Assembly: GCA_002118135.1 (NCBI GenBank)
Contig: BDIU01000132.1
Coordinates: 111,809-175,808 of the forward strand
Direction of reading: 5' to 3'
DNA: 64,000 nucleotides
From: Trebouxia sp. TZW2008
Taxonomy: Eukaryota > Chlorophyta > Trebouxiophyceae > Trebouxiales > Trebouxiaceae
Shown piece by piece: positions 1 to 60,000 of this stretch (positions within the stretch are counted from its first letter, which is position 1; each line of letters starts with the position of its first letter). Under the pieces are notes generated by a model that was given only the letters and a program-made list of their open reading frames with translations, was not told the origin of the DNA and did no database searches. A program made the position numbers and the translations under genes.

Positions 1-942
1 ATCCTTGTGCTCCAACCTGCTTGGGTCCACCAAGGATGTAGTGTCCCAAATTAAGCACACGACAACCCCTGGTACAGCATTGATACGTGGTGCTCTGATT
101 GTGGCTTGTTTTGGGGTCATGTACTTGCTGGTTGATGACTTGTCACAGACTGGACCTTGCTTTGTGACTGCACTGTGCTTGCTGTTCTGCTGTGCTCTCG
201 TGCTCTCTGCTGGCTTCTTCCACCTGCTTGCTCTGTCGATGACCAGTTTGTCAAGCTGGTTTGTTCTCACCTGATAGCCTTTGTTCCTGCTTGTTCTCAT
301 TCAGGGATTAATTTGACAAATGTAAGCATGACAGAGCTCTTGTTGCAGCATGAGCACATGATGCCCTGACTGTGGCATGTTTGTCTCTCATTCTGCTTAT
401 TGACTTCACTGCATGGTTTTTGGTATTTGATGAATATTTGTGTACAGCAAATCTTGCAGCAAGACTGTGGTGCGCTTGGAGTCCTGCTGTGCTTCTGTGC
501 TTTACCTACACTACAGCAGGTGAGGGCGCAGTAGTACAGCAGGGCTACAGTGTGCACTAGCCTTGAGGCACTTTTTGCTCTGGCAAACAATTTGTCGACT
601 GGATAAGTAGGTCAATACTTGTGTCATTGAGGAGCCAGTTGCCAAAAATATGTAGTGCTACATGTCAGGACTTGGCAGGTGCGCCGAGATATCAAGGATG
701 CTAATTGAGTAAGCGTCCTGCTGGGTCCTGCTGTTGCAGAGATGCCTATTGCTCTGTTCTATCAGTGCTGCGTAAACAGGTGAGCTGAGCAGGCCAGACT
801 GGGAGGCTGACTGTACACAGCAGCAGCAACAGCAGCTGCGCTCGGTCATGCTGCAGCATGAGTGCTCAAGAGAGAAGCATCCAGGCATCAATATCGTCCA
901 AGTGCAATCGTTGATCAAACACACAGGGCCTTGCTGTTGCAG
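1..942. other. Upstream stretch of the transportin-3 gene, no exon assigned
   Basis: The family alignment of the exon at 943 requires coding sequence upstream, so this stretch should lie inside the gene or hold earlier exons. An open frame from position 2 to about 120 looks like a possible exon, but I cannot align it to transportin-3. Positions 727-855 are a diverged copy of the 5' half of the exon that starts at 943 (entered separately). The rest is TG/CA-rich intron-like sequence. Confidence 0.4.
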
Positions 943-1348
943 GGATGCCTGCCGGTCAATCCTGTCAGTGCTAAGGAATCTGCATGACCTGAGCGGGCCA
1001 GACCGGGAGGCTGACTACACACAGCAGCAGAAGCAGCAGCTGCGCTCAGTCATGCTGCAGCGGGACCCTCTGCTTGTGCGCATCCTGTTTGGCGGCCTGC
1101 TTGGAGCCTTGCCAAAGTCCAGGGTGGATGACATTGCAGCCGTCTTCTATGACATGATACACGTGAGACTACTTGCTTTGTGTCTGTTTACAATCTGCTT
1201 TCTGTCTGCAAGATAACATTGCCACTAGCGTTTTTGACATGATATATGTGACCCTGTGCTAGCGCGCATCCTGTTTGGCGGCCTCCTTGGCGCTCTACCC
1301 AAACCCAGGGTGCATGACATTACAGCTGTCTTCTATCACATGGTACAT
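727..1348 (+). repeat. Partial tandem copies of the first transportin-3 exon seen here
   Basis: Positions 727-855 repeat the acceptor and 5' half of the exon at 943, including the TTGCTGTTGCAG acceptor and the CAG-rich stretch that encodes the QQQ segment. Positions 1262-1348 repeat its 3' half and donor region (CGCATCCTGTTTGGCGGCCT is shared with 1079-1098). Neither copy is a complete exon. The upstream copy carries the acceptor side and the downstream copy carries the donor side. Confidence 0.85.
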
Positions 1349-2522
1349 GTGAAAATCTGTTGCTTGTGCTTTGTGCTGTGACAGTCCATGATTGACTGCT
1401 TCATTTTGCAAGTTGAACTTGTTCGTCTTGTATCAATGTCTTGGTACGAAACTGTGCTAGAGACCTGTTTGGCCATAGCACTCCCCTCTTCAGTGGTTTT
1501 ATTTTCGTTATATTGGTCTTGGTCTTCCATTCTTGTGTGTTGTTGCCAAAATAAGCCCTGAGATCAGGTGTCATTGTGCAAGAAGTACCTGTGGCCACGC
1601 TCTGCATCTGAACGCATTTGGATTCCGCTGCAAAGGAGTACCAGGGGAAGGCTTAACCCTGGCTGGAGGCAGCCCTGGCAGCTGACTACTGATCTGACGA
1701 CTGATTTGGTCTGAAGCCCCTCTCAACCTACTTTTGGTCTAAGCCATACGTGACTCTGCAAATGTATAAGGCAGAGGATCACCCTGGCTGGCCGGAGGCT
1801 GCTCTAAAAGAAATGAGGGGACTAGAAGCCATACTCGGCTTGTCCATGGCTTAGTTGTATGAGTGGGTGTGCAGGAGTACAAGGGGGAAGCATACCCATG
1901 GCTAGAGGCAGCCCTAGGAGCCATTCCTGAACAGGCCACCACTACTGCTGACAAGCAGAGCGTTATGAAGGCCGCCCAGAGCTTAGCTGCTGGTGTGGAC
2001 AACAGATGGTAAGCATTGTCTTTGCTATTGTGAAGAGCAAGCGGGTGACGTACATTCAATCAATTTATCTGCTGTGCACAGATGTTAGTGCACCCTGCAT
2101 TGTGGATGGTGGCTGCTCGATTCACTCTCAATTACATCTTAAAAACGAGGACAACTCAACTTTAGTACTTTCTCTGTGTTTTGAGGTGTGGCCGTTGACC
2201 CTGTCGGAAGTCAACAACGATCAGCTGATCTCACTGGCTGCAGCTTTGTTACCAAGCATAGTTTGCAATAAAGTTTGACTGCTGGTGCAAACAAAAGTCA
2301 GAGTTGGCATAGCAACAGATGAAATGGTGGCATCATATCTGCAATTCCTGTTGTTTTGCACTGTAATTTGACAGGCTGCCAAGGGAGAAGAACTCATGCA
2401 GGGATCTGGAAAGCGCTCTAGATGATTTGAGTGAGGTGTGCCGGCGCAACAAACACAGCATGGAAGCTGCTGTCCGTTCGCTGCTGCCTCATGAGCTATA
2501 CCTGGCTGCCATGCCCAACTAA
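943..2522 (+). CDS. TNPO3: Transportin-3 / MOS14-like karyopherin-beta, C-terminal exons (5' partial)
   Basis: This is the C-terminal part of an importin-beta-family receptor that carries SR splicing factors into the nucleus. Exons are 943-1162, 1875-2008 and 2375-2522 (TAA stop), and the phases fit (2/0, 0/2, 2/stop). The reading runs from RDACRSILSVLRNL through LPKSRVDDIAAVFYDMI and WLEAALGAIPEQ to SCRDLESALDDLSEVCRRN. These segments follow the known order at the end of animal TNPO3: RDAN..LRDL, LP..LPDVAEVLWEIM, WLENSLKGLPKE, CKQVCWALRDF. About 166 residues are present, and the HEAT-repeat body lies upstream, probably outside the window. Both introns contain partial copies of their flanking exons. 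Family assignment is fairly secure. It could in principle be the related importin-13, but the WLE..LP motif favours TNPO3. Confidence 0.75.
1632..1806 (+). repeat. Two partial copies of the second transportin-3 exon
   Basis: Positions 1632-1690 and about 1760-1806 both resemble 1872-1925, the 5' half of the exon starting at 1875 (GGAGTACMAGGGG...TGGCTRGAGGCAGCCCT). The first copy has an in-frame TAA where the exon has coding sequence, so both are relics inside the intron. Confidence 0.8.
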
Positions 2523-17108: not shown

Positions 17109-17633
17109 GGCTAGATCTGACACCCCAGTACCGCTTCGAGCGCAGACCTTTGCTGCTTCTGCTCAACTCTCGTGCACTATTGGACCAAGTTTTGGGTTCC
17201 GCAACAGTATTGTAGAACAAAGTCGGGACTGTCGAACTGCTTCATCGGCTCATCCATAATTGCAGCAGTTGCAAGTAGTAAAAGGAGCAGTTCAAGCCGT
17301 AGCTGACAAGTTGGCTTGCGCTGAATTCTGCAGACAGCTGACTGTACTTTCCTGCGTTCTCTGAGACTTGTAACAGCTGAAGGCGAATGCTGAGCAGCAC
17401 TGCTCCAACAGATTACAAACTAATCAAACCTGCCAGTCTGAGTGCTAGCACTAGCAGCGCTGCACCAGGATCTTGGCCACAGCAGCTTGAAGTATCACAG
17501 ACAGCAATCTTTGGTGCATGTGCTGCTCCTTGTGCTGCATGCCTTGCCAATGCTGATAACTTGCCGACTGCTGTCCCATCATCAGCAAATGCTGCATTGG
17601 CTGCAACAAATTTTATGCCTCGATATTCCTTAG
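17109..17633. other. Intergenic stretch
   Basis: This lies between the F-box gene start and the TPR gene stop, both minus strand. A minus-strand open frame of about 70 codons follows the TPR gene stop directly but has no acceptor in phase and looks like GCA-rich 3' UTR. Confidence 0.5.
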
Positions 17634-20600
17634 CTACTCAATAGCATCCAGGTCCTCATCCGCCTCAAGCATAGGCATTGACACTGCTTCATCTGCTGCA
17701 ATGCTGTCGGAGGATTCTGCCTGAAGCAAAGGCTGACTTTGACCAAGAAGCTTCAGCTGTTCACGTCTGTCAGGCCCACTGTCAATCAAGCCCTCGCCTG
17801 CAGCAAACATGCATGTGTGAGTCCTTGGACATGCCTATAAAAGGGTGTCAGCAGATATGTTCATAAAATTTTGAACCATCACACGCTGGCTGCAATGACA
17901 CATGCAGCTTGACCAGCCAAAAGGGTTACAAGGTCACTGAGCTGAAGAGCTTGCTAGCCTTGTGTGCTGAGAACTGACATGCCAAATGGAGCTGCAAGTG
18001 ATTCATTGTGAGCTAACAGCTACGCTGCTTGACTCCACACAAGCAGTGCAGCCGTGCTTTCTGTTAGACTGTGATGTGATTCCATGTCATACTCAGGCTG
18101 CTTCTACTCACAGAAACATTCACCACAATGCCTCATGAAAATGCAAATTCTGTTATGACTGTGCCTCATAGTTCACATCAAACCATTGTTGTTATGTATT
18201 TGAGCAACACTACCACCATCATTGCCATCACAGGCTTCCTTTGTACTGTCATGTCTGTTTCTGGGGCAAGGTCTCACCTGGTGCAGGCCCTGAGCCCATA
18301 CCCAGCCCCACCAGGTTGGGCCCCTTCAGTTGCTTCACCTGCTCCCAGGACAAGGCTTTCAGAGGGTACACCTCCAGGGCTGCTGCACCCTCGCTGTCCA
18401 AAATTGCCATCAGCTCATCCACCTGCAGTGCCATGCCATGAGTGAAGATCAAGACCTATTCTGCAATTTGACAAGGCTTGATTGTCAAAAAGCTTGATCA
18501 GCTGCTGCCAGGAAAGGCCCTGCAGGGGTTACACCTCCAAACAGCTGCACCTCTCACTGTCCAAAATTGCCTGCAATCACACCGCATGAGTGAAGATCAA
18601 GACCCTGGCTGCATGTTGACAAGGCCTGAACCTGAAAGGGCTTGACTACATGCTGCCATCGAATTGCCTGCAGGGGGTGCACCACCAGGGTCCAAAATTG
18701 CCATCAATATTTCCACCTGCACTGCCACAGCATAGGTGAAGTTCAGATCCCTTTGGCATCTTGACAGAGCTTCACAACAAAGCCTAGAGCAATATCACAG
18801 CGTGAAATGGTGACATGAACAGGGATGCTGCCTTACCGAAACGCTCAACAGCTCCTGCACCAGCAAAGCCACAGCATAATTGAGGCAATGGAAGGGAAGC
18901 CCTGGTAACAGCCACTGCAGCATTAGGCACTCCCTTAAACAGTGACTTCTCTTTGTAAGGACACTCATTGCAAGGACATTCTTGATGTAAGGACAACCAA
19001 CCACTGCGTTCTGACTGCAGAGGCACCTCTGAGTAAGGACGATTCAATATAAGGATAATTTTCTTGGGAACCAAAGCAGTCATTGCAAAGAGAAGTCACT
19101 GTCACAGACATTGCACTATTAGGCGCGATAGTTTCTCTTGTATCACCTGCTGGCTTAATCCGCCTAGCAGAGCCAAAGCAAACAAGATAGACAGACAGAC
19201 AGACAGACGGACAGACAGGCAGATGCGCAGATGAACAAATACACCTTGCAATAAATACACAATTCTGAGACAAGATTTAAAATTGTGTGGATGAGTACAG
19301 GAGAACAGAGAAGGACGAAACGTAAGCTTGAGGGCAGGATGAGCGAGTGCATGCAGCTTGCCTAGCTTCCAGTCTGTGACTTGCTTGTGTTGCAACATGG
19401 GGTGCAGGTGACCGTCACACTGATGATAGGGCAGGATGGGCGGCACTGCTGGACGAATCAAGACATCTCCACATTAACTCAGGAATGCATGCATGACAGG
19501 GCTGACCTTCCAGTCTGTAGCTTGCTTGTGTTGCAGAATGAGGTTCAGGTCTCCAGCAGGCATTGTCAGCAGCTTGTCCATGACAGGTTCTGGCAGGGCT
19601 GGATGGTTGGCGCTGATGCGCTCCTTCATCCACTCATAGTAGTAAAAGTACTTGGGCCGCTGCTTCAGGTACTCAGGCTTTTTGTGCTCCTCCTCTTCTG
19701 CCAAGTACTCCTGCAAGCCTGCTGACCCACCAGCCTGCAGCAGACTCATTTATGAACACCATCAGCATGCTTCAAATGCAATTTCTGACTTTTGATTGAA
19801 ACTTGCAAACAGTACTGCTATATGCAGCTAAATGCTGACCAAAAGCTGAAGTTGGGTTACTCAATATCTTGAGTGGCATTGGAGGTTGCTGAAGGCGTGT
19901 GGACTGTTGTGTGTTAATCTGTGACTGCACAAGTCTTGCAGAAATGCTTTGTCGTGCAGATGCCAGAAATATATAAGTAGGTATGCTTTCATAAGACATG
20001 CAAAATTGTACTCGTGCAGATGAGCTCTGGACCCCCAAAAATTGTCTGGTCCATCAATTGTCGAGCTTGTTCAGCTTGCTAATCTCAAGATTGACAGCTA
20101 CCCTCATACAGAACACATTAATGTTATGCAGACTTGTTTCTTCAAATCCTTCTGTTCCATGAGCAGTTAGGCATGTAGATCTGACGGCCCAGATTAAATT
20201 TGGAATGAGACATGCAGAGCCATACCTCAAGGGCATCAGCAACTGGCAAAGGCACACGCCGCATCAATCGCTCCAGGTCTTCAATGTAGCTGTGACTGCT
20301 GGGAGCCAGCTCATGCGCAACTTGCATGGAAAGCGCAGCAGGCACATTGTCCTGTAGTGCATAAAGGCACAGCTGGTACTCATTTTTTCATACATTGCAA
20401 ACATGGGCTAGGCAGGCTCAGCAGGCCCATCTAGGTACGTACAGAAGCAATCAGCTGTCTCCAACGAGTTTGGTCATGTGCTAAACTAAACCATTTATAT
20501 TGGACATGGAGGGCGGAGAGGTCATTGTACACAGTTGACTGCCAAGTGTCTCTGGGTTTACTGTTGGCCTGAGTGCCTGATAACTGCCCAAACATTTACT

Positions 20601-38576: not shown

Positions 38577-40748
38577 CTACCCGCCATTCCCGGTTGTACT
38601 CATGTAAGGCCCAAAGGTCTGCTGACAGCCAAAAACGGTCTGATCAAGAGCAACAGTCACTGCCAGCATGAACGCTGAGTTGACGCTTGATAATGTGTGC
38701 AAGACGTACGCATCAAGGTGGCTTGGAATGGGCTGCTTCTGCTGAATGTTTGGCTTCACCTTGTTCATTTCTGCAACTGGTCGTGAGTACCCATCCTCCT
38801 GCATGACAAGAGGCCCAGGATCAAGAATGCTCAGGAATGCTCAAGAAGCAAAATGCGCAGGATCGCTCAAAATTCTCAGAAAGCCATGCTCAGCAGTAGA
38901 GCAAGGATACGCCTGAATTGGTAACAATACACAAGAATCGCAAGAATGCAAACGAGCAAGAATGCTCAGCAATGCTCAGCAATGCTCAGAATGCTCAAGA
39001 ATGCTGAGGAAACAAAAATCGCGATGCTGCTGCACAACAACAGGCAATGCTCAGAACAAATTAATAAAATCAGGCACATGCATTCCCAAACATCGCTACA
39101 AACATGTGTAGCGATGCTGCTGCACAGTAAGAGCCAATTTTGAGAAAACATGAGTGGCCATGCTGATACACAATAAGAGGCAATAGTGTGCTCATGAATG
39201 CTCAAGAAACACGAGCGGCAATGCTGCTGCACTACAAGAGCCAATGCTCAGAAAGTAAGAACGGCCATGCTGATGCACAATAAGAGCCAATGCTCAGGTA
39301 AGATGAGCGGCAATGCTACTATGCAACAATGCTTCAAAACAGGAGTGTAATGCTGACGAGGCCACAGGACCCTATGACATGACCGCACAGATACAACAGC
39401 TTCAGCAACAGCAACAGCCAGAGATGCTACCGCAACAATCAGTTTCGTGTGCATCACTGCAGCATTTCGGAGAATGTTGGCAGACGCTTTTGTGCCTAAG
39501 CTTTCAAATCCATGACGTGACTGGTGCACGCTGTCTGTGATTCGGCAAGAAGCACATCTTTGCGCTAGATTGTGCCAGAGGCTTGGATCCAATTCCTGCT
39601 GTAAGGTGACGCAAGGTACAGCACATAGGAGCAGTCACTGTTGTTACTAATTCACCTGGTGGACAATCTTGCCGTATGTCACACTGTCGTTGCCCTCCAT
39701 CTGGAAGTCTGCCACAGGCTTTGTCTTCTTGTGGTGGTGACCCTGCCCATCTGCCATGTCAGGCTGCCTCTTAGCCTTGCCCTTCAGAAACACCTAAAGC
39801 ACAAGCAAGCAAAATGTCCAACAGGAAGTGCCATGAGCTGTGACAATGTGCAAAGCCAGGCTGCCTCTTAGCCCTGCCCTTCAGAAAGACTTGCAGGCGC
39901 AAGCAAGCAGGATGCCATACAAGCAGTATGCAGTTGCAATCAAGCAAGACGTCCAACAGGCAGTATGCTGAGCACAGGGCTCCAAAGGAGCTAAGGAAAT
40001 ATGCAATGTCAGGGCTTGAATGCATCAGCAATCGACAGCTGAGGGATGAACAGCACTGAACAAGAAGCAGCTGCAGCAACATGGTGAGCACACAATTCTG
40101 TTCAATGCTTGCTTGGCGCAGTTATGCACAAAAGAGTGGCTTCGTCATCAGCTGAGCATGTGCATTTGCAGCATTACACGTCATGCATTCTTGGAGGCTT
40201 ACACAATCAACTTACCTCTGCATTAACACACGCTGACTGAGTCTTCACAGTGGCAATCTTGTCAGCTTTCTGAGTGCTTTTCCCAGAGAAAATGTACCAC
40301 TTGTTACAAAGACTGAAGCTCTTCTTCTTGAGAGTGAGCACAGTAGATCCAGCTGTATCTTTGATATGCATGCATGACGTAGGCACGTACATGCTTCTAT
40401 AAACATCGTTCGACCTCCTGCTAGTGTTCAAGCCATGTACTCTGCAAGGCACACATCAGTTGACTGCTCTGCGAAACGTCAAGCACGCCACTCACAGGGC
40501 CAATTGCAAATTTGAAAGACAGGAGCAGCCCAGTACCTGAATCGTTGTGCACCAGCACTGTCTACGACGTTGTACACCTCTGTGCTGAGTGGGTTGAGGT
40601 TGGTTCGCAGCGTGAGTGCCACGTCGTGGGGCAAGCAGAACTTCGGGTCGACGATGGGGAGGGCGTCCCGACTGTTCAGCTGATCCCATGGCATGGCGAT
40701 GGCAGGTTTTGGTTGTTCGAATTCGACTGCTACGCCTTTGTCAGCCAT
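38577..40748 (-). CDS. LURP-one-related (LOR) protein, copy 1
   Basis: A member of the LURP-one/LOR family (Pfam LOR, tubby C-terminal-like fold), linked in plants to defence-related expression. Biochemical function is unknown. Exons in transcript order are 40537-40748, 40216-40441, 39656-39793 and 38577-38798, giving 265 residues. Family landmarks appear in order: VYNVVDSAGAQRFR, TVLTLKKKSFSLCNKWYIFSG, VFLKGKAKRQ, DFQMEGN, VTYGKIVHQ and YVLHTLSSVNSAFMLAVTVALD. Compared with copy 2 it has 13 extra residues in exon 2 and lacks the Gly/Tyr tail, ending FGPYMSTTGNGG. Exon boundaries and phases are the same as in copy 2. Intron 3 is filled with an AATGCTCA minisatellite, and a 40-bp copy of exon 3 lies at 39855-39897. 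Confidence 0.88.
38800..39350. repeat. AATGCTCA-type minisatellite
   Basis: Irregular tandem units built on CAATGCTCAGCAATGCTCAG and the longer GCGATGCTGCTGCACAACAA segment recur across intron 3 of LOR copy 1. A shorter run of the same units lies in the corresponding intron of LOR copy 2 (about 42255-42330). Confidence 0.9.
39855..39897 (-). repeat. Partial copy of LOR copy 1 exon 3
   Basis: Minus-strand TTTCTGAAGGGCAGGGCTAAGAGGCAGCCTGGC repeats the exon start at 39793, preceded by GCCTGCAAG. A matching relic of LOR copy 2 exon 3 lies at about 42801-42830. Confidence 0.85.
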
Positions 40749-41914: not shown

Positions 41915-43726
41915 TCACCAAAAGCCACCAAATAGGAATGGGGTGGCCAACAAGCCAGCACCCAGCAGTAATGGAGCACCATAGCCAAACCCTCCATACC
42001 CATACCCTCCGTACCCATAGCCCCCATATCCTCCATATCCATACCGACTGTAAGGGCCATAGGCCATTTGCTGAGGGCTGAACAGAGCCTCATCAAGGGC
42101 AACTGTCACCGCCAGCATGAACACTGAGTCAATGCCTGGTAGTGTGTGCAGGACATATGTGTCAAGGTGGCTTGGAATAGGCTGGTCCCGTTGAATGTTT
42201 GCCTTCACCTTATTGATTTCTGCAACTGGCCGTGAGTAACCATCCTCCTGCACAATAACAAGCAATGCTCAGCAACAAGCAATGCTCAACCAAAGGGCAA
42301 CGCTCAACAACAGGCAATACTCTGCCACAGGCAATCCTCAGATAACAGCAGCCATAACATGATAGTGCATGCTGGCTGGGAGCAATACAAAGGCAAAAGA
42401 GCAGTCCTTCATCACAAATGCCAGCTCCGGGCGGAGCTGACATTCAGACTGCAGTATGGGATGTGTACAGGCAAACACACAGCCGATGTTGCTGTGTTGA
42501 CAGCAACACAGCAATATAGCATATGTTTATGCAAATATGCTGATACTGCTACTCACTTTGCAGACAGACCAAACACGCCACATGGTATGTACAACATACC
42601 TGGTGGACAATCTTGCCATATGAGACATTGCGGTTGCCTTCCATGAGGAAGTCTGCAACAGGCTTTGGCTTCTTATGGTGGTGGACCTGCCCATCAGCAG
42701 TGTCAGGCTGCCTCTTGGCCCTTCCCTTCAGGAAGATCTGCAAACACAAGCAAGCAAAATGTCAAAACAGGCACTGCCATAAAGTGCGAACAGTGCAAAG
42801 TCAGGCTGCCGCGCTTCAGGAACATCTGGAATGCAAGCAAGCAAAATGTCAAACAAGCACACTGCTGAGCACAGTGCTAATACAGCGCTGTGGTAATACG
42901 CGCCTTGATGAAGGTCAATTGCACCAGCAAATCAGACTTAAGTGGTTGATGAGATCTGAGATGCAAGTACCCAAAATTTGAAGACACAGGCAGCATGTGC
43001 ATTGCAGAACGGTGCAGATCCATTGCAGTACACGATCTCAGCAGGTGACATTGGGTGACACACGAGACATAAACACCACTGATCAAAGGACAGCTGCAGC
43101 AACATCCTGAGAGCGAGCTACCATTCATGTTTAGTGTCTGCAGACACTCAAACAAGAGCCACTTTTCAAGGAGTGGCAAGCAAAGCTTCCATCTTTGTGC
43201 TGCAAAAGTGCCATGTAATGTAGTGTTACAGATGCGCCCAACAACTCACCTCTGCGCTTGTGGACCCCGACTGAGGCTTCACAGTTGCAATTTTGACAGC
43301 TTTTTGGGTACTGTTTCCACTGAAGATGTACCACTTGTTGTGTGCGCTGAAGCTTTTACTCTTGAGAGTAAGCACAACTGCTCCTGCCCTGTCCACAATG
43401 TGCATGCTGCTTCCGCTGGTGTTCACAGCATATACCCTGCAAAGCAAGGATTACCTCAGTGGTCTGAGCACAAGCACAGCAGTCACATGACGATGTGCAA
43501 AAGCAGAAGCAGCTTGGTACCGGAACTGGGGTGCGCCAGCACTGTCGACAATGTTGTAAACCTCTGTGCTGCGCGGGTTGAGATTGGCTTGCAAAGTGAA
43601 CACTACGTCGTGGGGCACGCAGAAGCCCTGGCCGACGACGGGAAGGATATCTCGGCTACTTTGCTGATCTACGGGCACGCCCATGACAGGTTCCGACTGC
43701 TCGACTGCTGCACCTTTGTCAGCCAT
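41915..43726 (-). CDS. LURP-one-related (LOR) protein, copy 2
   Basis: Tandem paralogue of the LOR gene at 38577-40748 with identical exon structure: 43521-43726, 43250-43436, 42600-42737 and 41915-42247, giving 287 residues. Landmarks are VYNIVDSAGAPQFR, VVLTLKSKSFSAHNKWYIFSG, IFLKGRAKRQ, DFLMEGN, VSYGKIVHQ and YVLHTLPGIDSVFMLAVTVALDE. The end differs: a Tyr/Gly repeat (SRYGYGGYGGYGYGGYGYGG) is followed by a hydrophobic LLLGAGLLATPFLFGGFW, which could anchor the protein in a membrane or drive self-association. The start MADKG is chosen because copy 1 begins the same way, although an in-frame ATG lies a few codons upstream. Confidence 0.88.
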
Positions 43727-45091: not shown

Positions 45092-48000
45092 TCAAGTGGA
45101 GTCGACTGAATGCTGTGAACCTGTGCTTTTGATAGACAGCATCGGCTGCATAGATTGTGATCTTTGAGCCTTGGGAGCTGGTACTGGTGCCATTTGCACA
45201 CCTGGACGCTGCATGCCCTGGTTTCTTGGACGCTCCAAACAGCAGTTCACACACCAACCAAACCCGGCTTTGATACTCCTCACAACCTGTCCTGGGAATG
45301 CTACAGTTGCTCGCCAGGCTGCTTTCACAATGCGTTTGCCCTGGCTCCAAAATGCCACAATGTAGCTGCGGCCGTACTTGATGGTCATGTAAGCCACAGC
45401 AATCAGGAAGGCCACATTGAGAATGAGGAGCAGGATGGCGATTGCACTTGATCCCACAGTGCTGATCACATTGCCGTCATCAAGGAACATTGTACAGCCC
45501 ACGGCAGTGGCAGTCACCGCAACCATGCCAAGCACCTGCAGAAAGGGCAGCTTCATCTGAGTCGTAATCACACTCTATAAAAGGGTTAATCGGCAGTCAG
45601 GAAGGTCACATTAAACATGAGCAGCAGAGTGGCGCTCATGCTGGAGCCCACGGTGCTGATGACATTGCTGTCATCTAGGAACATTGCACAGCCCACTGCA
45701 GTGGCAGTCACAGCGACCATGCTCAACACCTGCAGAAAGGGCAGGTTCATCTCAGTCACAACAATGCTTTGTACAAGGGTTGATCAGCAATCAGGAAGGC
45801 CACGATGAGGATGAGGAGCAGGATGGCAATCGCGTGTCTGAGTCCACGGTGCTGATGACGTTCCTATCATGTAGGGACATGGCACAACTCACTGCAGTGG
45901 CAGTCACCGCAACCATGCCAATCACCTGCAGAAAGGGCAGGCTGATTTCAGTCACAGCAACACTTTGTCGAAGGGTTAATCGGCAGTCAGGAAGGCCACG
46001 TCAAACATAAGCAGCAAAGTGGCAATTGCGCTGGAGCCCGTGTGGCTGATGACATTGCTGTCATCTAGGATTATGGTACATCCTACGGCAGTGGCTGACA
46101 CCACAATCATGCCAAACACCTGCAGACAGGGCAGGTTCATCTCAGTCACGATCCTCTGTAAAAGGGTTGATAAGCAATCAGGAAGGCAACGATGAGAAAG
46201 AGCAGAAGGACGGCAATTGCGCTTGAACCCACAGTGCTGACGACGTTGCTGTCATCTAGAAATATGAGGTACCCCACAAAACCTGCAGATACTACAAACA
46301 TGCCCAATTTGTGCAGAGACATGTGTTCCTGAAGACAACTCAATAAACCTGTACTCAGTTGATGCAGCTCACCACTGTGAAATGTGGCGCTCAAAGCAGG
46401 CACATGCAAGGCTCAAGATGGACGTGCTGAGGTGACATAGCAAAGCTGAATGAGCTTTGGCTCCCATACTCTTGGCAGTGAGGGCCTCGGCTCATTGAGA
46501 TGTGCCATGCTCACTCAACAGATCCTTGTCGAGTTCTGCATAAGTCTGAGAATATGTCAGAGCGAGTTTTCAATCCCCAGAATGACTTAGCATGTCTGTG
46601 AAAGCATATAGATTGCTGTCTGGAGTGGTGTGAGAGCAAACACATTCAGGACTCAAGCAGGATGGCTGTCCTAATGATGACTTGGACAAACACATGCAAC
46701 ACTCAGTAAGCTGTCTCAAATGATGCAGCACACTTGAACAAGCTGGGGCTTCCAGGGCCAAGACTTGCCAAACTCTAGAAGGATCTGCTAAGTTGACATA
46801 AGACACCTAACAATCATATTATTGCATCAAGGTGATGACGATCATGATAAAGACGGTGGTGACCACAACAATATACCACACCTGAATGAGCTGTGGTTCC
46901 CATCGATCCAGAGGATGGAGGTGCGCCAAAGCAACAACACCAAATCCCAAGATGACTAGCATGATGGTATTGTGAAACCACATGCACCGATCAACAAGTC
47001 TATGCTCATTTGACAATGCACACTCAAAAGAGCTGTGGCTTCCGGACCCAAGACTTGCAGGACTCAAGCAGCATCTGCTCAACCGACATGGCACATCTGT
47101 TCAAGGACAAGATCTCAAAACCATGATGATGTCAGTCATCATGAGCACAGCGCTCAACACAACAGTAACATTCCACACCTGAATGAGCTGTGATTCCCAT
47201 TGGTCCAGAGGATGAAGGTACTCCAGAGCAACTGTGCCAAAATCGAGGATGACCAGCAACATGGTGATTTGGAAATCACAAGCAACATGTCAAGCATCAA
47301 ATAGCCTTTGCTTAGTTGATGCAGCACACCTGAATGAGCTGTGGCTCCCATTGATCCAGGGGATGGAGGTACGCCAGAGCAATCGTGCCAAAGCCCAGGA
47401 TGACCAGCATGATGATGACTTGGAAGAAGGAGTCAAGGGTGTTGGCAAAGACCTGAGCCGCCGCCAGGCCTAGGGTTTGCACCAGAACCACGCTCTCCCA
47501 GAACCAGAATCTTGGCCTGCGATGATCACACATCAGAACTTGTTTGCTCAGAACTTTTCTGACGGATCAAGCAATAGTTTCGAGAATCTGTCAGTTCATC
47601 AATGGCTTGATGCCAAATTGCTCCCTGAACTGTAAATCAAGTAGTGACTGCTTGCCGTTTTGGCTCAGAAGGGCTGACAGGTAATGTTGCTGAGTGATGC
47701 TGAGATGCAAACCTCATAGTCTGCACCAACACTGCTCTCTTCCAAGCTGCAGTTGCCAACCAGGACAAGTTGGTTGCACCATCTCTTGATGACAGGTTGA
47801 GCAAGCCGAGACCAAGTAAGTCCAAGCTTATGGATCATAGTGAGTGCAACAGAGTTTTGATGCTCGACGTGTTCCCTCTTGAACCGTACACAATGTAACG
47901 AGGGTGACGCAGAGTTGCTAAGGAACCTGAAAAAGACAGTAGTGGTGAGTAACATTGACAGGCAAGACCCAGAGTGTGGAACAACACCACACTCCTGGGA

Positions 48001-51000
48001 GAGCGTGTATCAAGTGCAAACAGTGCCGCCAAGGTGCCACGCCTAACCATTGTACTCCAGCTTCTGGTCTAGGATCACACTCTGCAGAATCAGAAGGTCC
48101 AGCTACAGGAACTACATAGTGCACTTGGTCGCCTTGTCTGTGCTCAGCAGGGCTAAGACAGGCAGTGAGCCCCAGAAGTGTACTACAACTGTGAGATTGT
48201 TCACCAAGCACAAGCAGAGTCACTGAGCTGCCGTGCATCACCATTGGAGTCCAGCTTCTAGTGCAGGATGACACTATCTTTCGACGCCAAGCTGGGTATC
48301 TGAGGGTAACACAGGGCGAATTGACTGCTTCGACTGTGCTCAGGTGTGCTGACAAAGCCAATGATGCTGTTTGATGGCAACAAACAGGCAAGCGAGCTTT
48401 ACTGAACGCCTGCTGAGCTGCGGAACTTTGAACCCTTGTGTACAGCTGCAAAACAAGATGGGCCCTTCATGAATCTATTGTGGTCTAGACCTCATTAAAA
48501 CCCTGATTACATCCTCGGACCTGTCTAATACGCATTGTAGTGATTGTAGCCATACTTATTACCAACGGAATGATGCAGGCCACGCCAGAATGACAGACAG
48601 CCAAGGATCCTCACCAATGGGACTGAAATGCCATAAAATCAGATTTCAGGCTGTGCAGATCTGAACACCGATGATGATGATGAGTGGCTGACCTGTAGTT
48701 GCAGAAAAGGAAGCCCAGGCGCAGCTTGACGGCTGCTGTATTCAGGTGGCCCCGCTCTGCTAGAAGCAGGGCAACTGGCAGGAGAGGAATGACGACGCAG
48801 CCCAGCACAATCAAAGGAGCGCCCAGTCCTGCAAAGAGACCAACAAGTCAGGCATGAGACTGAAGGTGCAGCATCACAGCTGTTGTGTCCGGGTAGCCTC
48901 GCTCTGCTAGAAATAAGGTGACTGGCAGGAGAGGGATGAGAACGCAGCCCAGCATAATCAGAGGAGCACCCAGAGCTGCAAACAGAAGCAAGTTAGGCGT
49001 TAGCTGAAGATGCAGCACCACAACTGCTGTGTTGAGGTTGCCCTGCTCTGCCGGAAGTAAGGCGCCTGGTAGGAGAGGAATGACGACGCAGCCCAGCGCA
49101 AACAGAGGAGTACCCAAGCCTGCAGACAGCATAGGAAAATCAAGCAGCTCTGACATAAACCCCACCCAACTGATCGCCATGCTCATTGAGGCAAAATGCA
49201 CAAACACCCTGACACCCTGAACCCTGCAGCCCAGCACAATCAGAGGAGCACCCAGGCCTTCATTGCTATTGTACACTGTATCTAGCCAGATCTACTAATG
49301 CAAACTGCAAGAAAACCCTGAAGCCCTGACGAATGTGGTCGATCAATATTTTCAGGGTTGTTGGAGACACTGTGCAGTCACAACTGGCGTGCAGCAATGC
49401 TAGGAGTCAGGCATAGGCTGAAGTAGACAAAAGCTGCACAGGCTGCAAGTAAATAGCATGTGACAGTGATGCTGTCTCCGAGAGTAAGAGGCAGGGTCCA
49501 CAGAGTGAGCATGCATCTTCTGCGTAATGCTTTTGTTCATGTTTAAGAAACAGATAGCGCTATGCATAATTGTTCCTTGCGGCTGACAGTCCAGCAGAGA
49601 AAGTCGTCCGTTGACAAAACAAACAACACTTGTGCACACCAAACACGCTGGTCACTTGATTTTCATGTGACAACACCTGACCTACAGACCACAGCACAGC
49701 ATGTATTGCTGCTGAATGACAGCAGCATTTTGCAAATCAACAGACAAATGCACAGACACGTGCTGAGACATCAAGCTGTATCCCTCTGATACTGACTCAG
49801 CTTGTGCTGGCGGCTTACCAGTAGCAAGCCTGAGATGCCATCCCTCAAAGCACTGAAATCTCATGTCTGCCACCCAGTAGCCACGCTCACTGGTCGCCTG
49901 CACACAAAGCACATGAATCCAAAGCAAAGGTCGTGGGTTCAAGTTCTAGTTCTGACAACACAAAGTCTCTGAGATGAAGGGAAAGCCATGCATAGCAGTT
50001 GCCTGCTGCCCAGAAAGCACAAGAGCTGCAACAAAAGGTCATGGGTTCAAGTCCTGCCTCTCTGGTGCAGCAAAGTTTCTGGTATGTACAAACAACCGTC
50101 GGGAATGTATGCAGTTGCTGTTGGTGAGCTGTTGCAGCATTGAGACTGTCGTAGTACTCGTAAAGGTCTGGGAGCTGCACTAACACACAAACAAACTACT
50201 CTGTTGCTCCCACCTTGATGACACCAGGGTCCAGCTGGCCAGTTGAAAAGTGGTCATTGTGGCAGTAGGCAAAAGTTACAGGATCCTTGTTAGCAGGCTT
50301 AGGTCATGCCAAGTTGCTTCATGGTCATGCTTAGACGCACAACTAGTTAATTTTGTTTCTCACCTGGATGAACTCAGGGTATAGCTGGCCAGGTAATAGG
50401 TGGTCAATACGGAAGCAGGAAAACAGGCTCAGGATGGTTGTCAACAGACTTGGGTAGTAGTAGAACAGGACAGATAGGAAGGTGACCAGCATGCGGCTCC
50501 TCAGTTGGATCAGCCGAGTTTGCCAAAGACTAAGGCTATGCAGGTAAGACGGCATGACAGCTGTCGCTTGTCTGGGAGTAGTGGCTGCTAGTGAAGGTTG
50601 TTTCAATGTGCTGGCCCACCTACATGGAATGCAAAGTCGTCAGCACATGCCATAGGTTGGCTGTGAGCTGTCTTGTAGTTTATGTGACAGAGGCCACACA
50701 ACTAGGACAGCATTGTAGCTGTTGTTTGTCTGAAAATTATGGCGGTCAATAGCTGATGCCATGTGCTGGCCCACCTTAAGAAAAGATCACAGCATCATGA
50801 AACAGCATACATCTGCTTGAGCACAAATGCAATGCAGGCAGCCAATGACAGTGAATCATTTGTAAAGATCCTGGCCTTGAAGTCATCAGGTTACGCTGCA
50901 GCATGTTGTTTCCCAGAAGGTTGGCAGACACAAGAACAGTGCCACTCACAGTCATATCAGCCAGGATTTCATGCTTGTGGGTGGCACAGGGCGCTCACCA

Positions 51001-54000
51001 GATGATCTGGAGCAGCAGCATGAGCACAAGGACAATGGGCGGAACAAAGAGGTGCACCAGGATCCTCTGCAGGGCTGTGTTGTGGCCTGCTGACAGCAGG
51101 CAGTCTGTGGACAGGCTGCCACTGGTGACTGTGGAGAAAGCAAAGTTGGCTGCACTGAAAACCCAATGCATAGCCCTGGGCGTGGGAATGTTGACGCCTG
51201 CTAACAGGGTGATGTACTGCAGCCACTGCTGAGCAGCCTGCAAAGCAGCATTCCTGTTATTTGTCAATGTTTAAGTACAAGTCACATGTTGCCACTGGTC
51301 GCGCTGGAGAATGTAAAGTTAGCTGCGCAAAAGACCCAGTGCATGGTCCAAGGTGTAGGGATGTTGATGCCCGTTCGAAGCATGATGTACTGCAACCACT
51401 GCTGAGCAGCCTGCACAACAGCCCATATGAATGTTACCAGGTGAGGCAATGAAATGCTAAGCAGAAATTGACATGTTCACTCACAGATGACAGCAAGCAG
51501 TCAGTGGATAGGACTGCTGAGCAGTCTGCACCACAGCCCATGACCAACGTCATCGTTGCAGTTATCATGTGAATGCTTGCTAGCGGGGTCGCATGACCCT
51601 GTTAGGTGCATACAGCCTGCATTAAGCCACTTGTTGAGCAAAAACCAACAGGCAGAACAAAACTCAATGCATGGCTCAAGCACAATTGCATATGACTGCA
51701 GTGCTCTCAGCTGCACAACATATGCGCAAAAGGGCCAACATGAAAGACAGTCTCGCTTTCGTGAAACCTGAGACTCGTGCAGCTCTTGGCTTGCGCTCAG
51801 CGCTCTCTGCTTCTCTAGCATCCTTACTGACGTCATCAACGCCATTGCAACCGATACTGTTTTCATGCTTACAGATGCATCGCTTCATGTCAATATAGCC
51901 AGCACGCAAGAAGGTAGCAAAACCTTGCCTTCAGAAACTCTGAGACCCGTGCTGGTCTTGTTTTGCCCTCAACATTGTCCGCTTCTCCAGCATCCTCCAT
52001 GTTCTGTCTGAGGGTGACGTGAATGGTGAAGGTCAGCCACAGCATTACCAGCACTGTGCTTGCAATGTAAGTCAGCACAATCGTGCTTGCCTTCCTGCGG
52101 GGTAGACATAGACTCTGAGGATAGACATAGACTCTGCAAGTAGAGAGCACTTGACAATGTGAGGATTGGAAAACATGCATGAGGTCAATTGCAGGCACAA
52201 AGGACCACAGCAAAGAAACATACACATCTGACAAGCTGCATGCTCAGATTCTCAATGTAGCTGTATGCCTTCAGCAGACAAAAGTCATGCCTCCAACAGC
52301 AGAACAATCTGCATTGCCATACTCACAGCTGCGTGACAAAAACAGCACATGAAGATATACCGAGCATGACAGGTCATGAACCAACATGTTTGCAGCAAAT
52401 CAGCAGAGTATGTAGCATGCATGAGTAAAGCGTGCCTGCAGGGTTTGCACTGTAGGGTTCCTGTTCTCCCATATCTGTCCTGACCAGGCGGGGCATTGTG
52501 CAGAGTGCACAGCGAGCACACTGGCCCATAGTAACCTTCCTTGCACATCTTCATCATGTACGAGTTGGGGTCATCAGCATCCATGGCCCTTGTCATGTTG
52601 CAAACCCCTGGAAACTGCAGTGACAACCATAGTGTAAAGCAACACCACACTAGAGTATATTCTTGTACATCTTCATCATGTATGAATTGGTTTCATTGAC
52701 ATCCATGGCCCTTGTCATGTTGCAAAGCCCTGGGAACTACAACAACAATCGCACCAGTCAGCATTGCATTCAAGCTTCAAGAATATGGAAGGAAGCCTGC
52801 TATGACGTAATGTTGCAAGTCTATGGGAGCTGCAGTAACAATCATACCAGCTCAGGGCACAGCACAGCACTCAACTGCACGCATAGCACAGCACAGCCAC
52901 ATAGACACAAATCCCTACCTCCTTGCAGGCAAGCAAGACAGTATGGTCACCTGCACTTGCTTGCGCGTTGGGGCAGCCCATGATGCTGGTGGACTGCAGG
53001 TTAGACTGCACCCTCAGGGGTCCTAAGTGCACTTTCTCCAAAACACTAGGCTCCCTCTGGGCTCAAGGGCCTCACAGGGGTCACAGCACAGCACAGCACA
53101 GCACAGCACAGCACAGCACAGCACAGCACAGCACAGCACAGCACAGCATCAATGGCTTATGCTTGTAGCTCACCTGCTTGCAGGCCAGCAAACTGGTACA
53201 GCTGCCTACGCATGTTTCCCCATTACGGCAAGGCACGATGCTAATGGACTCAGCAAGCACAGATGTCGAGACTTGACACGCACCTGTTTGCAATCCAACA
53301 AGATAGTGCGGTTGCCTCCACACGCCTCAGCATTAGGGCAGTTCACAATGCTTGTGGACCGAGGGTCTGACTGCCACTTGCCCTGGGGGGGTATGAAGGC
53401 TTCCCCGCCAAAGCACTGGGCCCCCTCTGGACAAGGGTCACAGCTGTGGTTCTTGGGATTCAGGGAGAAGGTTGAAGGGAGGCAGGTTGAGCAGACGGGC
53501 TGTGACAGCTCACGGTATTCGCCCGACGTGCATGCCTGAATTGTGATGAGCTTGTTTGCACCTGGAACCTGCAGATGCGCAACTACGCAACATTCAGTAG
53601 TGAAACTATGTCATGATGATTGTTCTACTGTGTTGGAAGCTGGTAGGGTGAATGAATTTACAGAGCTTCAATTGAGGCCAACATGCATACATATAAGGAA
53701 AGTTGTTGAGCAGCTGACATCTGCCGCAATGCAGCAAAAGGCCACCCAGCATGCAGTTTTGTTCTTTTTGATGAAGCTGTGCAGGGCTTGACGAAAGAGC
53801 AAAGGTGACATACAAATGCATGTTGCTATGTCTGCTGTGCCAGATTTGGCATTGATGCATGCAGCTGGTACAATCATTCAGTCAATTAGCCACTCAAGTG
53901 ATCAACAAGAGACGTCTCATGCACAGAGCATAATCAAATATGCAAAGAAAATAGAACCCTCACCAAGGGGAAAGCTGGCAGTGTTACTGTCATGTTGTAG

Positions 54001-57000
54001 ATCCAGGGCTCAGCAACAATCAAGACTTGTGACATGTTGATCATTCCATGAACATCAGCGTTGCCAGTAGTTTCACCAGGCAGGGAAGGATTGGGCAGAC
54101 TGGCCGGCGGATTGAGTGTAGCGTTGGCACCCACAGACGCCCTAAGAAGCTTTTGAGCGTCTGGTGAAACCCCTGCAAGAGGCCAGATGCAAGTGACAGG
54201 ACGGCCTGGCATCAATGCAAGAGAGAAATGGCCTAACATCAATGAGAACTTAGGACGTATCAAGCTGCTTAGCAATGTCAGCAGTCAGTAGCTTCACTGG
54301 GCAGGGAAGGATTGGGCAGACCAGCTGGTGGATTGAACGTAGCATTGGCGCCCACAAATGCTCAGCAGCCTTTGAGCATCTGGGGCAACACCTGCAGACA
54401 GACAATTGGCCTACTGTCCACACAGCATACCAAAAGCATTGTGTTTTGTGACCCTGCTAGGTGCATACATCAGGCAAACCTGTGATAACATTTGTCATTG
54501 CTAAGTGTGCATGTTAAGGCATCACCTGTCAAGCAAGATTTCTGATGTGTCACCTCTTGCATGCTGACGTTGAGTTGCTCAATGTGCAGGCACAACTTCA
54601 GCATGCTAAGCGTCATGATGCAAGCAAAATGGGATAAGTCTACATACCTATGGTGACGTTTTGCCCAGCTATATCCATGACCCAAGCAATCAGGTCCAAG
54701 GGAGAGGTGCCATCGCTGGTGTAGGTGACATTGTAAGGCTCATTGAGGACAATTGTAGCAGGAGAGTATGCCATCACAGCACCGTACCTATGCAGACACA
54801 GCGTAACGTGAACAGCTATCTGTGCATGTATTGCGACACGCCAATAGAGCAACAGCCTATGCGTGCATGGCATAGTGCGCGATCACATCACCAGACCTGT
54901 GCAGGCACATGATCAGTATAAACATGTACATGCTGTCTAGTTGGCTTCTCTGACCTTGCTAGGAACATACCAAGGTACAAACTGACTTCAGCGCATCACT
55001 ATCCGTGTCATCACACATCCAGCGATGAAGCAATCAACAGCACACGAAATGCTGTCAATTCTTTCATCATGAGTGTGTCTGCACAAGTAAGTGGTGACCC
55101 GTGAATTCAATTTCTTTTGGTCATGCAAACCGCAGTGAGTACTAAATGGCAACATGGCAAGCAGAACAATGATCTGTACAGTAGCTCAAGCCCATCAGTC
55201 ACACGGAAATGCCAACAAAGCAACACGCAATGAGTCGTCATGATGTTGACATACCAACTGGCGTTACTGTCAGCTGCAAACATGATGTAATTAGATGCAG
55301 CAGTGCAGCAGGCGTGCATTATAAGGAGGCAACAATGGCAAAGGTGGGTGCTGAGTTTGCTACTGAGGGCATGTTCAGCGCCGTAAATTGATCTCTGACA
55401 GCAGTGCCAGTAATACAAACAACAAAGATGGTTCTGTTACTGGTGTCAGTTTCGATATGATTGCTCATCATCATGACCACAGCAGCAGCAACAGCAGCAT
55501 CAACAAAGACAGTGGCGGTGACACTGTTCAGAGGGACAGTGCTCACCCTGTGGCATTTACTAAGTTGCCTTGCCAGGCTGGGGATTCGCAGCCAGTCCTG
55601 TTTTCCCTTGGCAGGCCAAAGGGACAGATGATGCTCAGACTGGCCATGTCTGTGGCATACTTTGGCGGCAGCAGCAGCAGCAGCGACAATGATGATGAAA
55701 CCAGTGCTCACCCTGTGGCATTTACACTGTTGCCTTGGCAAGCTGGAGCCTCACAGCCAGGCTTATTGTCCCTTGGCAGGCCAGAGGGGCACATCATGCT
55801 CAGCTTGGCCATGTCTGTGGCATACACTAGCAGCAGCAACAATGACTGTGATAACAAGACTGCAGGTAGATGCTCACCCTGTGGCATTAACGTTGTTGCC
55901 TTGCCGGGGTGGCCCTCACAGCCTGTCACATTGTCCCTTGGGAGGCCAGAGGGACATTATGCTCAGGTTGGCCATGTCTGTGGCATACACTAGCAGCAGC
56001 AACAATGATTGTGATGGCAAGACTACAGATAGATGCTCACCCTGTGGTGTTCACGCTGTTCCCTTGCCAAGCTGGGGCCTCACAGCCCGTCACATTGTCC
56101 CTTGGCAGACCAGAGGGGCAAATCATGCTCAGACTGGCCATGTCTGTGGCATACACAGCTCCTCCAGCAGAAGAGGCGTAGTTGTTGATGAAGGAATCGT
56201 TGGTGGACCTGACCACTGAGCAGCTGCCTACTGGAGGGATGAGGGCTGCCCACATGTACACATTCACGGGCTCCCCACCTGCATGCATCACAAGATGATT
56301 CTGAGACCAATCACCTGTCTCAAACTTGCTTTCAAAATGATGTGCATGCATCACTGAGCAGGCGCGCACTGGAGGCTTGACGCCTGCCCACGTGTATACA
56401 TTCACAGGTTCCCCGCCTGCATGCATACCAAGATTCCGCTCACCCTGAAACTAGCTGTTTACATGAGATGTTTACATGAGGTAGTGGAAACACATACATT
56501 CTGGCACAGGTCTTAGTATTCTAAATGTGGGTGGAATCTTGTCTCAGACACAGATGTGCAGCGCATGTCCCTGAATCGCACATACATCCTTAGACTGATG
56601 CTGGCTTTTGGCTGCAGGTTGCATTTGTCCATTGTCAAGTCAGCATCAAGGCCTTGATTTGATGCCGTCATCAGCATGCAGTTCTGCAGCAGCTCATGCT
56701 GACAGCAGTTGAGCTGCGCTTGACCGGATGATTGTGAGTTCAAACCAGCACAACAGCTGAAGGCATCCCACCAGAAAGTTGTTTTTCAGTTCAATGCATT
56801 GAGCAAGCGCAATGGCCCGCAATGGCCCCCAAAAAGGTTAAACTGTTAAGCTTGAGTAGGCTAAAAAGAAGAAGCTAATTGGGCTCACATCCACAAGCGC
56901 ACTTGCAATATCTGGGGGCAAATGAATGGCATGCTGACCTGTATACAGGCTCTAATCAGCTCATGCACTGATAACGTCTGTAATCAGCTGCCTGTGAAGA

Positions 57001-60000
57001 CGTAGGTTGCTGTAGAACTGATCAAAGACACGATCTGTGCACAAGCTAATTAGAGCCTGGTATGCAGTTCTGCAAGCCATTCACTTGGTGCTGAAGGAAC
57101 ATTGTCACTCCTGTAATGACGCAAGGATGCTGTGCAGCTGATGAAAGACGTGATCAGTGCATGAGCTGATCAGAGCCTGTCTTCGATCCTGCAATCAAGC
57201 CTGACAAGTAAGGGTATGACAATGCTGCGCTGCTGCATGTAAGGCTTGTGGCAACCCATACCTGGAGGAAAGCATTCATAGTTGTACGCTAGGGCGCCGC
57301 CAAAGCCTGTAGCATTGTTCTGTTGAAAGATGCTGCTGTTGATCAGGGTCACCCCTCCATCCAGGTACAGGGCGCCCCCACCCCCTGAGGCTGTTACATT
57401 GGCAGCATTGCCCACAAAAGTGCTATTGGTGATGTTACTCTGTGTCACACTGCTTGTGCCCAAACCGGACACATACACAGCTCCACCTTTTGCAGCCCTA
57501 CATGTAACACACAATGCTTTGAATCAGCTGCTTCCTGCATGCTGGCTTATGAATTGTTTGCACACACCATTGGCAAGGAACGCACTGTTGGTGATGTTGC
57601 TCTGCGTCACACTGCTTGTGTCCAGACCAGTTACTTACACAGCAACACCTTTTGCAGCCCTGCATGCAATACACATCATGTTGAATCACCTTAATTCATG
57701 CATGCTGGCTCATGACTCGTCAGTACACAGCATTGCCCAGGAAAGTGCTGTTGGCAATGTTGCTTTGCGTCATGCTGCTTGTGCACAAGCCAGATACAAA
57801 CACAGCCCCTCATTTGGCAGCCCTGTATGCAAGTTGCATCGCCTTTGATGACATGGACTGCTGACCCAAAAATTGTGCATGCACAGAAGGTGAAGCCACA
57901 CATGTGCAATCATTACAAAGCTTGCTTGCATGCATGCCATGACACTTTGCTGCATGCATGTTGTCAGAAATGTGATTGTAAAGTGCATCAGCCTTGGTGC
58001 TTGCATGTGGCAGCAAGGAAAGTAACATCAGACATCAGCAACGGCAAAATTGGCATGGATCTTACCAGTTGCCAGTGTACTGAGTGCCATTCAAGGTGAG
58101 TGCCCTGGTGCTCACAGTGTAGCACCCTCCACCAGACATGCCAGCTTGGTTTCCCTCCAGGCTCACCCCCAGTTGCATAGTCATGAAGAGGCAGTTGACA
58201 CAAGCTGCTCCTCCGCCGTTGGCGACTGCAGTGTTGCCTTCAATGCGAGTTGAGTTGGTGATAGTGATCTGAGCTGAGTCTGTGCCATAGACTCCGCCGC
58301 CGTCTTGTGCTTTGTTGCCGGTGATTGTGGTCTCTCCAATTGCCAGACCCCCAAAGTGCAGGTTGTTGACTGAGGCGATGGCTCCCCCGCCCTGAGTTGC
58401 TGTGTTGTTGTGGAACTGGCCTCTCCAGATGATGGTACCCAGGCAGGTGTCAAGAAGAACGGCGCCACCTTGATACGCCATGTTGCCCTCAAAGCGTAGG
58501 TCAACCAGAATCGCTGAGCGGGTTGACTTCATGCTCAATCCTGCTCCCCCACGTAAGTAAGTGGCCATGTCTTTGGTGTCTAAGGGCTGTAGAAAAGAGG
58601 AGTCAACATTGCGGGTGAATGTGGTGTTCCTAATATCTATGGATAGAGTCCAACCCAGAATAGGAGATTCGTTGGTGAACTTGTCCAGGAAAGCTTCACC
58701 ATTGTCGGTCACGGTACTGATGTTGAACAGTGGTGCATATGGTTGGTCGAGGTTGGTACATTCGCCCTGTGTGTCATCAATGGCTAGAGCAACACCCAAA
58801 TTGTCCTCAAAAGTGTTGTTCATCATTCCTACACACTGGCATTCCATGGCGTTGACTATGGAGGCACCTGGTGAGGCTGATGCATTGTTCCCAACAAACT
58901 TGGTATTCACAACGAAAAGGTATGTTGCGCGCATCTGATACCCTGTCACATACATTGCAGCGCCATCACCAGGAGTGTCCAGATGGTATATGGCTGAGTT
59001 TGCTTCAAAATGGCAACCGTCAACTGCAAGATAGGATGATTCCCAAGCGCTGATTGCACCGCCCTGGTACCCAACATTGCCAAAGAAAGTGGTATTCTTA
59101 AACACTAGTGTGGCATTGTTGGCAGGCTGAGCATAAAAGGCGGCATTGAACCCAGCAGTATTGTTGGCAAACAGACAATTCACAAACCAGGCATCTGAGT
59201 TATCGCCATCAAGCAAAATAGCAGCCCCGTTGACACCATTTGTGTTGTTGATGAAATGGGAATCTGTGATGTCAGAGGCTGCACTTTTGAGTCGCAGAGC
59301 ACCAGCATGGTTGTTGGGAGCAGCGTTGTTGCTGAAGTTGCAGTTATGGATCCCCAGCCAGTTGCCGTTTGTGTTGTCAACGTACATCGCACCCCCTTCA
59401 TAGCCGTTACCATTCAAGTGTGAAAACTGTGTGGTTGAAACATTGGCATAGCTGTACGTGATGCTGAGCCCCCTGATGCCATCTGTGAAGCTTGAGTGCT
59501 CAATGACTAATCCAGGGATTACGCCGTCGCCCTGAGAGAGGGTGACATTCAAAAGCTGTTTGACTGCGGTGCATCTCGTGCTTCTGAAATCGGTGAATGT
59601 CACAAAGGGGCACCACTCAAATCTGAGGATGTCGTTCAAGGTAGTATTGATGTCTGAGACTCTGGCGCCAGCAAAGGTGATGTTGGCTTGCTGAAAGAAG
59701 ATCAGTGTGTCAGTGCGACCCGGGGGCAGCTGCTGAGCTTTGACACCTGCAATAGAGGGTTTGGTTGTTTTCATTGGTGGCAAAGAGGCATTGGGATCAG
59801 TGAATAGCAAGAGAGTCATTGGGGCTAGAAAGTAGAGACCCCGATGTGCTGCAGACAGAGTGTGCACGTGGTGCACGCTTAAACGCGGTCACTGCTGCTG
59901 TCTCACCAGTCAAGGACCGGTTCGTTAGTTGGGAGCTAATTCCAACTGGTAGTTCGGTGCCGACGTCGCCCTTTTCAGCCGCGCAATGCAGCCCAAAACG

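Follow-up and report, generated by a model that had tools for sequence, protein, structure and literature searches.

The introns of the green alga Trebouxia sp. TZW2008 harbor many partial, diverged copies of the exons beside them, which we refer to as ghost exons. We analyzed a 64,000-nt stretch of this genome (assembly GCA_002118135.1, contig BDIU01000132.1, positions 111,809 to 175,808; hereafter the window, with positions counted from its first nucleotide) together with 24 stretches of 10 kb, giving 304 kb in total from a genome of 68.5 Mb in 527 contigs. GC content is 49.5% in the window and 48.7-51.9% in the 10-kb stretches. Our data confirm that the ghost-exon phenomenon is real and genome-wide, and that the copies come from the adjoining exon. 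Ghost exons are probably decayed partial tandem duplicates of the neighboring exon, placed at random and kept where splicing skips them.

Repeat pairs were collected by self-BLASTN (at least 45 bits, offset 50-600, non-redundant), and low-complexity pairs, as well as those whose first copy overlapped a kept pair by more than 30%, were dropped. Within 600 bp, the 304 kb contained 133 direct pairs versus 4 inverted ones, which is the direct and local orientation of short tandem duplications. A preliminary description of the window, made from its letters alone, had reported partial exon copies in introns as a genome-wide habit and had named shuffled sequence and identical, artefactual copies as checks. 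Self-BLASTN revealed copies at the places it named, and order-1 Markov shuffles of 224 kb yielded no match at 50 bits. Moreover, pairs were present in 17 of 19 stretches (L001-L005 were left out of the density counts), with 0 to 18 pairs per 10-kb stretch and a mean of 4.4 per 10 kb. Density was very uneven, as stretches L018 and L007 held 18 and 9 pairs, respectively, and L013 and L015 held none. In two-copy pairs the aligned part was shorter than the period, and the flanks mostly failed to re-align.

The source of the copies was established by comparing introns with adjacent and non-adjacent exons. The test gene in the window was TPS (trehalose-6-phosphate synthase/phosphatase), whose introns were placed by a purpose-written protein-to-genome spliced aligner using two algal homologues (P0001 and P0003); its protein is nearest to that of [Myrmecia] bisecta (P0001, 86%) among the best 120 of 7996 matches. 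In the 15 of 22 TPS introns used (introns 1-2 and 18-22 were omitted as unreliable), 6 of 30 adjacent exon-intron comparisons, in five introns, scored above all 450 non-adjacent and reverse-strand controls. An ABC transporter gene outside the window, nearest to Trebouxia strains (C0006: 77%, with 94% of the query covered), had its exons placed with the C0006 protein. At an adjacency threshold score of 30, adjacent comparisons matched in 11 of 36 cases, whereas the controls gave one match in 306 non-adjacent and none in 342 reverse comparisons; 9 of the 18 transporter introns contained a copy. Beyond these two genes, predicted exons and introns were supplied by an ab initio gene finder trained on the same genome, which reproduced 12 of 16 TPS exons exactly and mistook some ghosts for exons; this agreement is not independent, since the first training set contained TPS exons. 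After predicted exons shorter than 40 nt and introns below 60 or above 3000 nt were dropped, the ab initio models gave 118 matches in 770 adjacent comparisons; non-adjacent exons gave 31 in 2156 and the reverse strand 5 in 770. Roughly one predicted intron in four (98/385) carried a copy of the adjoining exon.

For the border, anatomy and intron-birth counts, predicted exons shorter than 25 nt were dropped. One exonic and one intronic copy made up 65 of the pairs, and the others were intron-only (26), both exonic or at a border (37) or otherwise placed (5). The 65 exon-intron pairs were divided evenly between the acceptor side (33) and the donor side (32). Copies reached the splice border in 58 of them, against a random expectation of 42%, and covered the whole exon in only four (random expectation 10%), which agrees with the earlier remark that whole exons are seldom copied. 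Upstream-exon copies sit close to the donor (median distance 104 nt) and downstream-exon copies close to the acceptor (84.5 nt), and introns with copies are longer than those without (median 457 versus 306 nt). The pair offset had a median of 164 (interquartile range 137-196, n=133), which fits the recurrent local duplication of units of about 100-200 bp proposed in the preliminary description. The median was nearly equal in intron-intron (161), exon-intron (164) and exon or border pairs (165), suggesting that unit size is a property of the mutation and not of splicing. In 22 of the 65 exon-intron pairs the copy ended within 12 nt of the border (hereafter sharp copies). CAG was found at 7.9% of duplicate edges versus 4.7% inside, and edge composition gave no clear splice signal; break points at splice motifs were rejected on this ground, despite the sharp ends.

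We propose that short tandem duplications of about 165 bp would strike at random places, without any need for border targeting. A unit covering a border would leave two donors or two acceptors, and use of the outer splice site would give an intact mRNA, so that the event would be nearly neutral, the intron would be lengthened and the extra copy would drift. This would explain the survival of border copies. Units confined to an exon would presumably be purged, and those confined to an intron would decay about twice as fast, because both of their copies drift. A length of 165 bp is close to the nucleosome scale. With less assurance, we suggest that staggered breaks, with nicks on opposite strands about one nucleosome apart, were probably filled in and their ends joined; the genome does contain matches to the Ku family.

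Simulations were in part consistent with this proposal. Decay at 0.20-0.28 substitutions per site produced 31-38% sharp ends and a ratio of aligned length to period of 0.57-0.70, compared with 22/65 and 0.59 observed; ages of 0.03-0.20 produced 7-17% sharp ends, younger ages over all runs 3-17% and older ages 31-47%. Blind placement with exon purging and neutral decay gave a ratio of exon to intron-only pairs of 2.07 at mixed ages (0.1-0.28 substitutions per site) and of 1.1-12.5 over ages, compared with 65:26 (2.5) observed. The idea in the preliminary description that the process acts on border-straddling units is therefore not required. Identity values also speak for the proposal: in 36 pairs, exon-ghost identity exceeded intron-intron identity (0.837 versus 0.791, p=0.003).

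Several findings weigh against the proposal of random tandem duplication followed by decay. An age of 0.20-0.28, which matches the sharp ends, would give a pair ratio of 12.5 instead of 2.5, so that the two fits call for somewhat different ages. The closest simulation fit needs an indel to substitution ratio of 0.2, and the pair alignments show 0.04-0.08. The flank beyond the splice site could not be re-aligned (p<0.05) in 17 of 22 sharp copies, some of them with good identity, and the flanks of the copy with 97% identity are clearly poorer than its exon part, for which gene conversion or selection was considered as the keeper of ghost identity. Mismatches at codon positions 1, 2 and 3 were 0.168, 0.106 and 0.236, respectively, and of the 85 codons that differ in the transporter ghosts, as many as 49 differ synonymously; the low value at position 2 and the high synonymous share could reflect some constraint or conversion. 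Finally, only 3 pairs had both copies in intergenic sequence, versus about 12 predicted (0.43-0.48 × 26 intron-intron pairs), a shortage that rests on ab initio gene ends and gives a hint of a link with transcription.

Since splice-anchored flanks re-align in only 5 of 22 sharp copies, templated insertion stays a rival, albeit an unlikely one. In this process a break in the intron would be patched by copying the nearby exon end, the spacer would be original intron and a strict tandem would never have existed. The unalignable flanks fit such inserts, as do the spacers of two-copy pairs, which are mostly unlike the expected flanks (the spacer resembles the flank beyond the ghost in 3 of 22 and the exon interior in 1 of 22), and the 75-nt spacer of the 97% copy. 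However, 33 of the 133 pairs belong to arrays longer than one period, and the offset clusters at 137-196 irrespective of the copied length. Flank similarity does appear in the younger sharp copies, with all three above 88% identity among the five that re-align, and simulated old tandems also yield sharp ends. Across copies, flank similarity exceeded the 95% null in 10.5% on the left and 13.8% on the right.

With some doubt, the copies appear to be mostly dead sequence. Of the residues that differ between exon and ghost in TPS, the exon shares 29 with the Myrmecia homologue and the ghost none (three in neither, one stop); in the transporter, the exon shares 27 with C0006 and the ghost four (three in neither, two stops). 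Frameshift gaps were detected in 23 of 118 copies and stops in 21, compared with 27.0 (standard deviation 4.3) stops expected if all differences were random. A functional role of the ghosts as alternative or mutually exclusive exons is therefore very improbable, even though many keep splice-like ends and the synonymous share of the transporter changes would suit that role: the residue polarity, the gaps and stops and the scarcity of complete copies all argue against it, a whole exon with intact frame was not what the copies presented, and none of seven homologous transporter proteins contained internal repeats.

In the Rogers/Hellsten model, introns are born when an exon segment bearing AGGT is duplicated in tandem; this origin seems still more improbable and was rejected for these predicted introns. 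Gene-internal tandem duplications are abundant in the genome, as that model would have it, but among 454 introns donor aligned with acceptor in only one (mean expected by chance 0.42), and no AGGT enrichment was found in the copies. These results suggest that duplication lengthened introns and almost never created one. Assembly or haplotype artefacts can practically be dismissed: although collapse in an assembly of 527 contigs could hide the youngest copies, the pairs are spread over nearly all stretches, and none of the 133 is identical, which disfavors duplicated assembly as their source (one is at least 95% and six are at least 90% identical; 5th-95th percentile 72-88% in the first 83 pairs).

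A steady rate of duplication predicts that 43-51% of detected pairs exceed 86% identity and 30-34% exceed 90%. Among the 65 exon-intron pairs, only 12 were at least 86% identical and four exceeded 90% (binomial tails <1e-4). Young copies are thus too few, so that a steady process is disfavored and the duplications were likely mainly a past episode; of the habit described earlier, recurrence holds, and an ongoing steady rate is unlikely. At a constant birth rate older copies could not outnumber younger ones unless detection failed, and instability of young copies would therefore be no explanation; assembly collapse should hide near-identical copies only. We also offer, tentatively and as a possibility that may well prove wrong, that the Trebouxia lineage underwent a genome-wide burst of tandem duplication of about 165 bp (nucleosome length), concentrated in transcribed genes. 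If so, much intron sequence would have been rebuilt from the gene's own exon ends, after which the process largely stopped.

The features of the window are collected in the table. The preliminary description had counted at least 40 copies there, in seven genes, including 11 of 15 exons of a surface-protein gene. Their abundance is upheld; the number is lower, with 30 non-redundant pairs, and 22 of the 75 introns predicted there hold 30 exon-intron matches between them. At a score of at least 50, copies occur in 5 of 12 predicted models and not in seven, and the other seven include the TPI gene and the model at 41915-43684, which has a weaker BLAST pair. The high share in the surface-protein gene stands with a different count, as 12 of its 19 predicted exons of at least 40 nt have a ghost.

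Features of the window, with positions counted from its first nucleotide
Feature	Positions	Strand	Basis or measure
Two pairs, 723-857/926-1061 (period 203) and 1064-1166/1250-1352 (period 186); the second is the donor side of predicted exon 943-1162	723..1352	+	self-match
Ghost, acceptor side of predicted exon 1875-2008	1634..1682	+	offset 239
Tandem array, period ~163	18335..18772	-	self-match
Ghost, donor end of predicted exon 19507-19734	19366..19409	-	exon-intron match
TPS gene, 16 exons used	25477..35361	+	homology, spliced alignment
Ghost, first 45 nt of exon 30071-30226 and preceding AG, in preceding intron	29844..29890	+	offset 225, 87%
Ghost, last 54 nt of exon 30071-30226, then donor-like GTGTGC	30390..30443	+	72%
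Two ghosts (30802-30964, 30971-31124), first part of exon 31151-31364	30802..31124	+	unit ~165 bp
Ghost, acceptor side of exon 32389-32520 including ~52 nt of intron	32162..32256	+	offset 175
Ghost, inner bases 58-92 of exon 32881-33075, in preceding intron	32798..32832	+	offset 140
Ghost, donor end of exon 32881-33075, GCAAG kept	33155..33225	+	offset 146
Ghost, acceptor side of predicted exon 39656-39793, LURP-one-related gene copy	39846..39927	-	offset 97
Ghost, acceptor side of predicted exon 42600-42737	42814..42860	-	offset 88
Predicted surface-protein gene, PMP-like repeats in long exon	45092..59819	-	prediction and domain match
Tandem array, period 194, ~4.5 copies	45397..46266	-	self-match
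Ghost, donor side of predicted exon 47330-47516; second copy 46877-46966	47174..47274	-	offset 151
Tandem array, period ~147	48717..49129	-	self-match
Ghost, donor side of predicted exon 50364-50619	50208..50304	-	exon-intron match
Ghost, acceptor side of predicted exon 50999-51237	51284..51422	-	offset 173
Ghost, donor side of predicted exon 51929-52094	51763..51824	-	offset 171
Ghost, acceptor side of predicted exon 52436-52614	52662..52741	-	offset 122
Ghost, acceptor side of predicted exon 53964-54172	54286..54396	-	offset 221
Array of ~3.7 units of 165 bp; unit approximates a complete exon, splice-like ends	55540..56156	-	rare near-whole-exon case
Tandem array, period 163, acceptor side of predicted exon 57262-57497	57403..57832	-	self-match

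TPS intron 33076-33554 is of the GC-AG type, and its ghost donor retains GCAAG. A dispersed repeat of 76% identity, perhaps a transposable element, lies at 18949-19102 and 28222-28387, one copy being within a TPS intron. In the surface-protein region, a 608-residue open reading frame (58062-59888, minus strand) carries PMP-type repeats of Chlamydia (PF02415, E 4.8e-9) in a green alga, and 56945-56991/57134-57180 (47 bp, 91%) is one of the only four inverted local pairs in the 304 kb. The neighboring genes at 38577-40694 and 41915-43684 are related, with aligned pieces 66-79% identical, and the second has a LURP-one-related domain (PF04525). The predicted model at 12051-16530 (minus strand) fuses a leucine-rich-repeat open reading frame, itself a weak match that falls short of the Pfam cut-off, with a gene of the TANGO2 family and is probably two genes merged by the predictor. 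A 5-bp tandem satellite (CAGCA/TGCTG) recurs at 7797-7834, 36116-36204 and 53082-53148, once in the opposite orientation. At gathering scores, Rfam had no match in the window.

A dense set of ghost exons would allow intron growth by duplication to be measured directly. Extrapolation of 4.4 pairs per 10 kb to 68.5 Mb would give about 30,000 pairs that could be traced in a single genome, and a unit size held so narrowly to 165 bp would suggest a cause at the scale of chromatin. The copies also mislead gene finders, as the ghosts predicted as exons here illustrate.

We found no description of ghost exons at such density in a search of paper listings and the openings of abstracts that covered few subscription papers; in the available part of the Trebouxia A48 paper (PMC12712428), the word "intron" appears once, in a reference. 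The frequency of duplications that make or lengthen introns has so far rested on modest case lists. Gene-internal tandem duplication is an established source of introns, with 188 events tabulated over seven species groups (PMC3443670). It is common to the cases of Rogers, Gao and Lynch and of Hellsten and to ours, whereas the donor-on-acceptor signature is confined here to a single one of 454 introns. It has also been invoked for intron change in Drosophila, where seven novel introns were attributed to tandem duplication, as inferred from proto-splice sites (PMC2891723). In potato, a single tandem duplication across an intron-exon boundary of an RdRp gene created a new intron (PMC4974935); the duplication straddles a splice border in both systems, but the Trebouxia copies lie within lengthened introns, in 98 of 385 predicted ones.

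Introners also change intron content genome-wide, including in algae, as dispersed copies of one element (PMC9860276), whereas each copy here stems from the adjoining exon. No introner-like dispersal was found for the two stretches tested: besides itself and its local copy, a 2-kb piece of the window had three matches of 38-49 nt, and a 1.3-kb intron-rich piece matched elsewhere in the 304 kb at a single stretch of 25 nt. Regarding mechanism, small tandem duplications arise at nick-induced breaks in mouse and human cells through Pol alpha-primase/CST and need Ku (PMC8355091). They resemble the Trebouxia pairs as short direct tandems, and Ku family matches occur in this alga; however, they were obtained in mammalian cells with overhangs of 43 and 50 bp, whereas our units of about 164 bp are known from sequence. 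The ghost exons would thus belong to a known mutation class, and what appears new is their seemingly high density, their narrow unit and the lengthening of introns instead of intron birth.

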